A stretch of DNA of 64,000 bases from contig JACPJU010000001.1 in assembly GCA_016187385.1 (NCBI GenBank), forward strand, positions 401,144 through 465,143. The letters run 5' to 3'. Within the stretch, counting starts at the first letter, position 1, and each line of letters starts with the position of its first letter. Positions 3,169 to 50,187 of the stretch are shown here, piece by piece. This DNA comes from Candidatus Aenigmatarchaeota archaeon (GTDB lineage Archaea; Aenigmatarchaeota; Aenigmatarchaeia; CG10238-14; SCSR01). The notes below the pieces were generated by a model. The model ran no database searches and had not been told where the DNA came from. It worked only from the letters and a program-made list of their open reading frames with translations. The position numbers and the translations under genes were made by a program.

Positions 3169-3444
3169 ATGAAACCATTTGAAATTATAGACAAATTCGA
3201 TAGGAGAATCAAACTCACAGAAGACAGAATATGGTCACATATATCTAAAAGACCTGAGATGTTGGATGCTGAAGGTCTGATAAAAATCGCTCTGAAAGAT
3301 CCCGATGAAGTAAGAGAAAGCAAGGAAGATGCTAACGCTTGGTTGTATTACAAGGTTAATCCTAAAGGCGATAAATGGAACAAATTTATAATAATGGGCA
3401 CGACCGGATTTGAACCGGCGACCGATCGATTTCTTAGCGCTTAG
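3169..3444 (+). pseudogene. C-terminally truncated PBECR-like nuclease-fold protein running into a tRNA gene
   Basis: The frame starts 9 bp after rnz and encodes 91 residues. Residues 1-75 (IKLTEDRIWSHI, PDEVRESKEDANAWLYYKV) resemble the barnase/EndoU/RelE-like PBECR type domains found in phage and toxin proteins. I expect such domains to continue with another beta-strand and an ITAY-like segment. Here the similarity stops at about position 3395, exactly the 3' end of the minus-strand tRNA-Ile. The last 16 codons (GTTGFEPATDRFLSA) are only the antisense of the tRNA T-arm and anticodon arm. I infer a truncated remnant, possibly cut by recombination at the tRNA 3' end. A functional short protein is possible but less likely. 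The family call is from memory and moderate. Confidence 0.5.
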
Positions 3445-3501
3445 CTGACATATAAGTCGATTGCTCCTTCTGGAGAGTTAACCAGGCTAAGCTACGTGCC
3501 C
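3395..3501 (-). tRNA. tRNA-Ile (anticodon UAU) with canonical intron and an enlarged D-loop
   Basis: Read on the minus strand, a 7-bp acceptor (GGGCACG/CGTGCCC), T-arm GCCGG-TTCAAAT-CCGGT, a 5-nt variable loop and discriminator A are clear. The anticodon stem is ATCGA/TCGAT. Between its arms the loop is 27 nt. A 4-bp helix CTTA/TAAG flanked by 3-nt bulges TAT and AAA is a canonical bulge-helix-bulge. It places a 20-nt intron at 3431-3450 after position 37 and leaves loop CTTATAA, anticodon TAT at 3452-3454. The D-stem GCTT/GAGC encloses 22 nt instead of about 10, so 12 extra nt (about 3467-3478) may be a second intron. Removing both gives 75 nt, a normal mature length. CCA is not encoded. Confidence 0.9.
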
Positions 3502-48854: not shown

Positions 48855-48974
48855 CTGCAGGTATGTTACCGCAAAGAGATTCGCTAAAACAGCTGGAATA
48901 AAGTGAATAGAATTTAACCTGATATGCCATTTTCTTGAATCTTATATGCCATGTGGGACTTGACAAAAAGGATA

Positions 48975-49061
48975 TGCCCCCGATGGGATTTGAACCCACA
49001 ACTTCTTCCTTGATCCATACATAGGACGGAAGCACTCTAGTCCAAGTTGAGTTACGGAGGC
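48975..49061 (-). tRNA. tRNA-Arg (anticodon CCU) with an 11-nt intron
   Basis: On the minus strand: acceptor GCCTCCG/CGGGGGC with one T-G pair, D-arm ACTC/GAGT, anticodon stem CTTCC/GGAAG, variable loop AAGTT, T-arm GTGGG-TTCAAAT-CCCAT, discriminator A, no encoded CCA. The anticodon loop is 18 nt. GTCC pairs with GGAT (4 bp, one G-T), flanked by bulges TAT and CAA, a minimal bulge-helix-bulge. Cutting within the bulges removes 49011-49021 (11 nt) and leaves loop GTCCTAA with anticodon CCT at 49023-49025. Mature length is 76 nt. Position 32 as G is slightly unusual. CCU reads AGG codons. Confidence 0.92.
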
Positions 49062-49122
49062 TCAGATTGATAATCTAAATTGGGATTTAAATAATTAACT
49101 TATAATTCATTTTATCGGTGTT

Positions 49123-50187
49123 ATGTTGTACGACGCTATAATTGTTGGTGGGGCACTATCTGGCAGCAGGACAGGTGAACTGCTCGCTAGAAAAGGAAAG
49201 AATGTACTACTGATAGAAGAACACTCGAATATAGGAATCCCATGCAAGTGCACAGGTCTTGTGAGCTGGAGAACTCCTGAAATGGTTGATCTGCCGAAAG
49301 AACTGATTGTCAACAAGCTCGATAAAGGAAAATTCTATTCGCCTGACGGGACTTCTTTCGAATTGAAGTCCAAGAAAACGGCTTATGTCTTGGACAGGAC
49401 AGGACTGGATAGATTCTTGTTTAATGAAGCAGTGAAATCTGGTGTTGATACTATAACAGAGAGATTCGAGTCATTCAAACGCAATAATGATCATCTTGAA
49501 GTCAAAACCAACAAAGAGATTTACCAAACTAAGGTTCTAATAGGTGCGGATGGTGCTAATTCTCTAGTTGCACAGAATGCCGGATTGGAGATGCCTAAAG
49601 ATATTTTTGTCGGTCTACAAACGACAGCTTCAGGGAATTTCGAGCAGTTTGCAGAGCTATGGTTCGGCAAGAATACAGCTCCTAATTTCTTCGCGTGGGT
49701 CGTTCCCGAGAATGAAGAATTAGCTAGAATAGGCATAGCGACACCGACAAGCCCAAAGCCTTATTATGAAAGATTCCTGGAAACAAGATTACAGCATAAC
49801 GGGCTGAAGCCTGATGTAGCGGGTATTATAAGATCTGGTATCATGAAAGATACTGTTGCAGATAATGTCTTGTTAGTGGGGGATGCCGCATGTCAAGTCA
49901 AACCATTTTCCGGGGGAGGAATTACATACGGATTAGTTGCAGCTCAAGTCTGTGCTGATGCTGTTGGACAAGCTTTCGAAGAAAACAGATTCGATTATCA
50001 GTTTTTCAAACGAAATTACGATTTGGAATGGAAGAAGATTCTAGTTCCTGGAATAAAGAAAGGGATGATGATGAGAAAAATGTTGTACCTTTTTCCGGAT
50101 CCTCAAATTAATCTTATGTTCAAGATGGTTAAACTGTTCGGGCGTAAGGCTTTGAATAGTTTGGATTTTGATTTATTGTCTGGATAA
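49123..50187 (+). CDS. Geranylgeranyl reductase family flavoprotein
   Basis: 354 residues. The N-terminal FAD site IIVGGALSGSRTGELLARKG (about 6-25) is a Rossmann dinucleotide fold, followed by LIEEHSNIGIPCKCTGLVS with the conserved PCKCTG element of the archaeal digeranylgeranylglycerophospholipid reductase family. LLVGDAACQVKPFSGGGI (about 247-264) is the second FAD motif, typical of the family. Such enzymes saturate isoprenoid chains of archaeal membrane lipids. The substrate here could be lipid or another isoprenoid. Its 3' end overlaps the convergent 85-residue gene by 15 bp. Confidence 0.9.
   Translation: MLYDAIIVGGALSGSRTGELLARKGKNVLLIEEHSNIGIPCKCTGLVSWRTPEMVDLPKELIVNKLDKGKFYSPDGTSFELKSKKTAYVLDRTGLDRFLFNEAVKSGVDTITERFESFKRNNDHLEVKTNKEIYQTKVLIGADGANSLVAQNAGLEMPKDIFVGLQTTASGNFEQFAELWFGKNTAPNFFAWVVPENEELARIGIATPTSPKPYYERFLETRLQHNGLKPDVAGIIRSGIMKDTVADNVLLVGDAACQVKPFSGGGITYGLVAAQVCADAVGQAFEENRFDYQFFKRNYDLEWKKILVPGIKKGMMMRKMLYLFPDPQINLMFKMVKLFGRKALNSLDFDLLSG

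Follow-up and report, generated by a model that had tools for sequence, protein, structure and literature searches.

The gene at positions 48975–49061 (minus strand) of the window, the 64,000-nt stretch of Candidatus Aenigmatarchaeota DNA analysed here, is very probably that of a tRNA-Arg(CCU) which reads AGG and carries an 11-nt micro-intron after tRNA position 37; its precursor would form a bulge-helix-loop (BHL) motif, be cut by the single splicing endonuclease (EndA) detectable in the genome and have its exons ligated. The gene, its anticodon, the presence or absence of the intron in congeners, the register of the splicing helix and the single detectable EndA can all be read from the DNA itself. 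The genome of the window (G000) measures 0.88 Mb in 3 contigs and is estimated to be 91% complete. The intron is well supported; it is of an ordinary kind and sits at the lower limit of size. What is unexpected is the enzyme that would remove it.

The gene matched RF00005 with 46.2 bits. Its acceptor stem has 7 bp, and the perfectly paired anticodon stem (CUUCC/GGAAG) and the T stem have 5 bp each. The two strands of the anticodon stem are separated by 18 nt, read as GUCCUA|UGUAUGGAUCA|A, and because this region is enclosed by a perfect 5-bp stem the intron was placed at 49011–49021 (minus strand), position 37/38 of the tRNA, as a sequence-only reading had already proposed. Removal of these 11 nt joins a 5′ exon of tRNA positions 1–37 (49022–49061, minus strand) to a 3′ exon of positions 38–73 (48975–49010, minus strand), both delimited by sequence reading and comparison with orthologues, and leaves the normal loop GUCCUAA with the anticodon CCU at 49023–49025 (minus strand). 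Sliding the intron by one base, to 49012–49022, gives an identical mature RNA. In the flanking DNA, the element ATTTAAAT (49085–49092, minus strand), lying 24–31 nt upstream of the tRNA, was picked out by eye as a putative box-A-like element. A T5 run directly downstream (48965–48969, minus strand), also read by eye, is a possible terminator.

The identity returned by ARAGORN depends on splicing: the unspliced sequence was called Ile(tat), and the spliced sequence, a cloverleaf with the anticodon CCU, was called Arg(cct). Taken by itself, the first call would make the gene an intronless or otherwise spliced tRNA-Ile(UAU), a reading that we consider scarcely tenable and rejected on the call for the spliced form; moreover, the orthologues in the congeneric genomes G002 and G004 are Arg(CCU) genes lacking the insert, and a separate tRNA-Ile(UAU) can be read at 3395–3501 (minus strand) of the window. 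The latter gene, missed by ARAGORN, displays a 20-nt intron at 37/38 and extra sequence in its D arm, for which no splicing helix emerged from a rule-based scan. The assignment to tRNA-Arg(CCU), made earlier from the letters of the window, is thus retained.

The strongest evidence for the intron came from congeners. In the Arg(CCU) genes of G002 and G004 exactly the 11 intron nucleotides are missing, and in G003 a different insert, of 13 nt, occupies the same site; the window gene therefore has what defines an archaeal 37/38 intron, an insertion after position 37 that is absent from orthologues. A homologue of the neighbouring window gene 49099–50184 lies near Arg(CCU) in G002, G003 and G004, on the same side, within less than 1 kb and with 70–75% protein identity; it adjoins the tRNA gene in G003, and one ORF intervenes in G002 and G004. 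The mature tRNAs of G000 and G002 are identical at 72 of 76 bases (hand count), and the base changes relative to congeners keep pairing, a U-A pair of the T stem in G000 being C-G in G002. The Arg(CCU) gene of G003 (L124, G003:C4) was also seen to contain a second insert in the D-arm region, with complementary GAGC/GCTC stretches noticed by eye. The presence and absence of an 11-nt intron in one gene of congeneric genomes constitutes a clean natural pair for the gain or loss of a tRNA intron at the lower size limit.

A wider survey of 145 genomes located Arg(CCU) candidates at 69 places, spread over 58 of the genomes; 47 of these places were examined. One of the 24 resulting rows (L137, from G055) was dropped as not being Arg(CCU), and long matches that failed the stem filter, such as those of G009, G010, G015, G026 and G030, were left out. 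Among the 23 clean genes, six carry a 37/38 intron (of 10, 11, 12, 13, 17 and 20 nt) and 17 carry none, proportions that do not amount to a census since the other 22 places, all of intronless length, lie outside the count. The shortest intron, TTTTTGAGAG, belongs to the Arg(CCU) gene of G028 (L033, G028:C33:1201–1284), where it forms three of the four helix pairs; G028 belongs to a different family from G000, and the same gene is intronless in G018, a congener of G028. The 12-nt intron of the G025 gene likewise forms only three of four pairs, making two such cases among the six. Across these six genes, which represent few events, tRNA base G32 occurs together with an intron U (two genes) and C32 with an intron G (four genes).

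The minimum-energy fold of the precursor contains a GUCC/GGAU helix and a 3-nt bulge (z = −2.25). According to this predicted fold, the motif consists of a 4-bp central helix, one pair of which is G-U, between GUCC at tRNA positions 32–35 (49024–49027, minus strand) and GGAU within the intron (49013–49016, minus strand; its position also agreed with the register test described below), a 3-nt bulge CA|A (49010–49012, minus strand) and a 7-nt terminal loop UAUGUAU (49017–49023, minus strand). The sequence-only reading had described a bulge-helix-bulge with two 3-nt bulges and a 4-nt loop; the helix and one bulge were recovered, and in place of the inner helix of a canonical motif (hBHBh′) there is only the 7-nt loop. 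As the inner helix is absent, the motif is a BHL, or relaxed bulge-helix-bulge, rather than the full form. Beyond the anticodon stem, the precursor would thus present the bulge and the helix, in which tRNA positions 32–35 pair with intron bases 6–9, capped by the loop. The single EndA would then cleave on either side of the helix at a distance of two nucleotides, at the 5′ splice site in the loop and the 3′ splice site in the bulge, positions that we presume from the rule for bulge-helix-bulge substrates, and ligation of the exons would produce the anticodon loop GUCCUAA; expression of the gene, like these cleavage sites and the ligation, is an expectation drawn from its sequence.

Taken alone, the helix of the Arg(CCU) gene could have arisen by chance, as the same helix appeared in 3,096 of 200,000 shuffled introns. 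We therefore examined its register, namely the pairing of tRNA positions 32–35 with intron bases −6 to −3, in 14 precursors of G000 chosen by their anticodon-stem pairing alone and blind to the helix. All four pairs were formed in 8 of the 14, whereas any one of six shifted registers gave a full helix in none or one of them; the remaining six precursors formed 3, 3, 3, 2, 2 and 1 pairs. The total of 46 out of 56 pairs, which retains two precursors (L011 and L023) probably mis-assigned by the blind rule, was reached in none of 100,000 permutations, which averaged 29.9 pairs and did not exceed 43. With the comparison of congeners as the strongest evidence, joined by the ARAGORN call on the spliced form and by the helix register, the presence of an intron beyond chance is well supported. 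These observations also bear on the notion that an 11-nt insertion, genuine or introduced during assembly, simply destroyed the gene. Such a pseudogene or assembly error would be compatible with a gene known from its sequence alone, but is very improbable: all stems are intact and the changes relative to congeners preserve their pairs, the insert obeys the splicing register of the other G000 introns, the insert that G003 bears at this site is another one, of 13 nt, and no other CCU reading was found among the 37 tRNA hits of G000, leaving aside several with complex inserts.

The preferred reading, a spliced tRNA-Arg(CCU), places the intron at an extreme of size. Archaeal tRNA introns span 11–129 nt as given in a 2014 review (PMC4090602), making 11 nt the published minimum on that account, and the earlier suggestion that the intron lies near the lower archaeal limit holds. 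The size is not unique, the intron of Lys(CUU) in G000 being equal and the 10-nt intron of the G028 Arg(CCU) gene falling one nucleotide under the published range. Extreme compaction of tRNA introns throughout the genome, as had been proposed, was an overstatement, and general compaction was rejected: the best readings for 37/38 introns in 17 genes of G000, some of them tentative, are 11, 11, 12, 12, 12, 13, 13, 13, 15, 19, 20, 32, 36, 38, 40, 43 and 45 nt. Those of Ala(GGC) and Asn(GUU) measure 12 nt, and those of Glu, Lys(UUU) and Tyr 40, 43 and 45 nt.

Introns outside position 37/38 were also encountered. The tRNA-Val(GAC) gene (L022, G000:C2:682602–682703) appears to contain two introns, one of 15 nt at 37/38 and one of 16 nt in the D loop; once the 16 D-loop nucleotides are taken out, its 5′ part closely matches sister tRNA-Val genes, so that a non-canonical D-loop intron in this gene is well supported. 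In a rule-based scan for D-arm introns, the Val(GAC) gene was convincing, a Pro gene (L062) was a candidate and L063 gave poor candidates only, and none was detected in L014, L017 or L066.

We then turned to the enzyme. The profiles PF01974 and PF02778 and a beta-subunit profile each retrieved a single EndA from G000 (L059, G000:C2:204838–205377), an alpha-type protein of 188 aa that comprises a single N domain and a single C domain. Its predicted monomer structure (mean pLDDT 89.7) most resembled the M. jannaschii enzyme (Z 21.8), tied with that of S. tokodaii (Z 21.2). Eleven relatives in named genomes all derive from Candidatus Aenigmatarchaeota metagenome-assembled genomes, the three closest (82–85% identical) being from groundwater, which points to this DPANN phylum for G000 as well. 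The protein has the make-up of an alpha4 EndA, in which one kind of subunit, of ~180 aa, holds both the N and the C domain; no second subunit gene was found in this assembly, which is not closed. It is not of the epsilon2 type, a three-unit chain of ~395 aa with a Tyr-Lys loop and the catalytic lysine. According to reviews (PMC8707768, PMC4033280, PMC6379350), BHL motifs are left uncut by homotetrameric EndA such as that of M. jannaschii and are processed by the heterotetrameric and epsilon2 forms; on the homodimeric form these sources differ, PMC4033280 describing it as strict and PMC8707768 and PMC6379350 as able to process BHL. The surprise is therefore that the only EndA found in G000 appears to be alpha-type and homotetramer-sized, yet the intron it would have to remove is a BHL.

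One way out would be a different EndA, made of two kinds of subunit or of epsilon2 type, that removes the intron but whose gene is missing from the assembly. With an estimated 91% of the genome represented in 3 contigs this is conceivable, and relatives such as G018 and G028 do encode an epsilon2-like EndA, and G040, G047 and G053 adjacent alpha and beta genes; however, we regard it as improbable. Of the 16 genomes of the family, 15 each gave a single EndA match above the cut-off and G004 (73% complete) gave none, and the beta-subunit profile, built partly from the controls G040 and G053, yielded two genes in each of these controls and only the one EndA in each of G000–G003. In other families (L160–L171), epsilon2-like EndA of ~400 aa were observed, many with a GVYK stretch resembling the Tyr-Lys loop of ARMAN-2, and both EndA types are present in G024, G026, G038 and G051.

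Removal by the single alpha-type enzyme, which we favour, raises the question of its active site. The EndA of G000 keeps the catalytic tyrosine and histidine and has alanine at the site of the catalytic lysine, where seven solved EndA sequences, aligned residue by residue, all have lysine. In an alignment of 28 sequences (A1) the tyrosine and histidine are invariant (28/28 each) and the lysine site is occupied by Ala (25), Thr (2) or Ser (1), leaving the Tyr/His/Lys triad of alpha4-type enzymes incomplete in all 28. Between the tyrosine and the histidine lies an insert in which Gly127 and Lys129 are each found in 28/28 and Lys125 in 26/28 (Arg in 2); Lys136 is Lys in 26 and Arg in 2. A wider table of 60 matched ORFs, three of which were set aside as beta subunits, gave the same picture: each of the 47 alpha-type EndA combines the Gly-x-Lys loop with Ala (40), Thr (5) or Ser (2) at the lysine site, in contrast to the 10 epsilon2-like chains, all of which keep the lysine and lack the loop. 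Of the 47, 42 were recognised by a scripted rule; the rule missed three in which Lys125 differs (G008, G013, G015), and G010 and G042 were added after reading by eye. Counted among them are the alpha genes from three alpha-beta pairs, one unit (the second) of a chain of 372 aa (G044) and a partial ORF of 126 aa (G026), and G024, G026, G038 and G051 are counted in both groups. EndA from outside the phylum were compared through solved structures only.

Since G000 has many tRNAs with introns and no other EndA was found in it, the enzyme is presumably functional, and if it works without the canonical lysine another group must do its job. We infer that Lys129 is the best candidate for replacing it, with Lys136 second. 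A broader proposal, which we hold tentatively and with slightly more doubt than belief, is that the catalytic lysine has been relocated in the alpha-type EndA of Aenigmatarchaeota, the canonical residue having been lost (to Ala, Thr or Ser) and replaced by the invariant lysine of the inserted Gly-x-Lys loop, and that where it is the sole EndA it would act as a homo-oligomer cutting both BHL and D-loop introns, permitting micro-introns of ~11 nt. If true, this would be an exception to the rule that homotetrameric EndA are strict. The enzyme that would remove the intron makes it possible to examine directly how splicing endonucleases can trade a catalytic residue and relax their substrate rules. 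In titles and abstract openings, with subscription journals mostly outside the coverage, we found nothing on point about tRNA introns or EndA in DPANN/Aenigmatarchaeota, or about a change of the catalytic lysine in archaeal EndA.

A second feature of the G000-family enzymes, the LPEE loop, was also considered. Full-length tRNA hits of 70–76 nt, counted by hand, number 8/37 in G000, 8/36 in G003, 23/40 in G020 and 13/35 in G025, which over these four genomes only is suggestive of more introns where EndA has the loop. The loop as sole determinant of relaxed introns was not supported, since G025 (L092) lacks it and yet has its 12-nt Arg(CCU) intron.

Compared with known systems, the intron shares with archaeal 37/38 BHL introns, a motif described in PMC8707768 and PMC6379350, its position, its 4-bp central helix, its 3-nt bulge and the lack of an inner helix, and its size matches the minimum published for archaeal tRNA introns in the review cited above; it differs from known BHL introns in its Aenigmatarchaeota host, whose genome shows one alpha-type EndA and no other. 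That EndA is like the alpha4 enzyme of M. jannaschii (1a79) in its one-unit architecture, in its catalytic Tyr and His and, as modelled, in its fold (rmsd 2.4 over 169 aligned residues, with S. tokodaii 2cv8 the tied match). Unlike 1a79, it has Ala for the catalytic Lys, six extra Lys-rich residues between Tyr and His, and an N-domain loop longer by four residues. With the ARMAN-2 epsilon2 EndA (4fz2, 9w2k) it shares a lysine-bearing loop, which in ARMAN-2 lies near the active site and is held to relax specificity in the accounts of PMC12397907 and PMC6379350, and in both proteins a 14-residue stretch follows YG. The ARMAN-2 enzyme is, unlike that of G000, a three-unit chain of ~395 aa that keeps its catalytic K282, a residue we matched to the catalytic lysine site by hand on the alignment; its replacement by alanine abolished cleavage, as reported in PMC12397907, and alanine is the natural residue in the EndA of G000.
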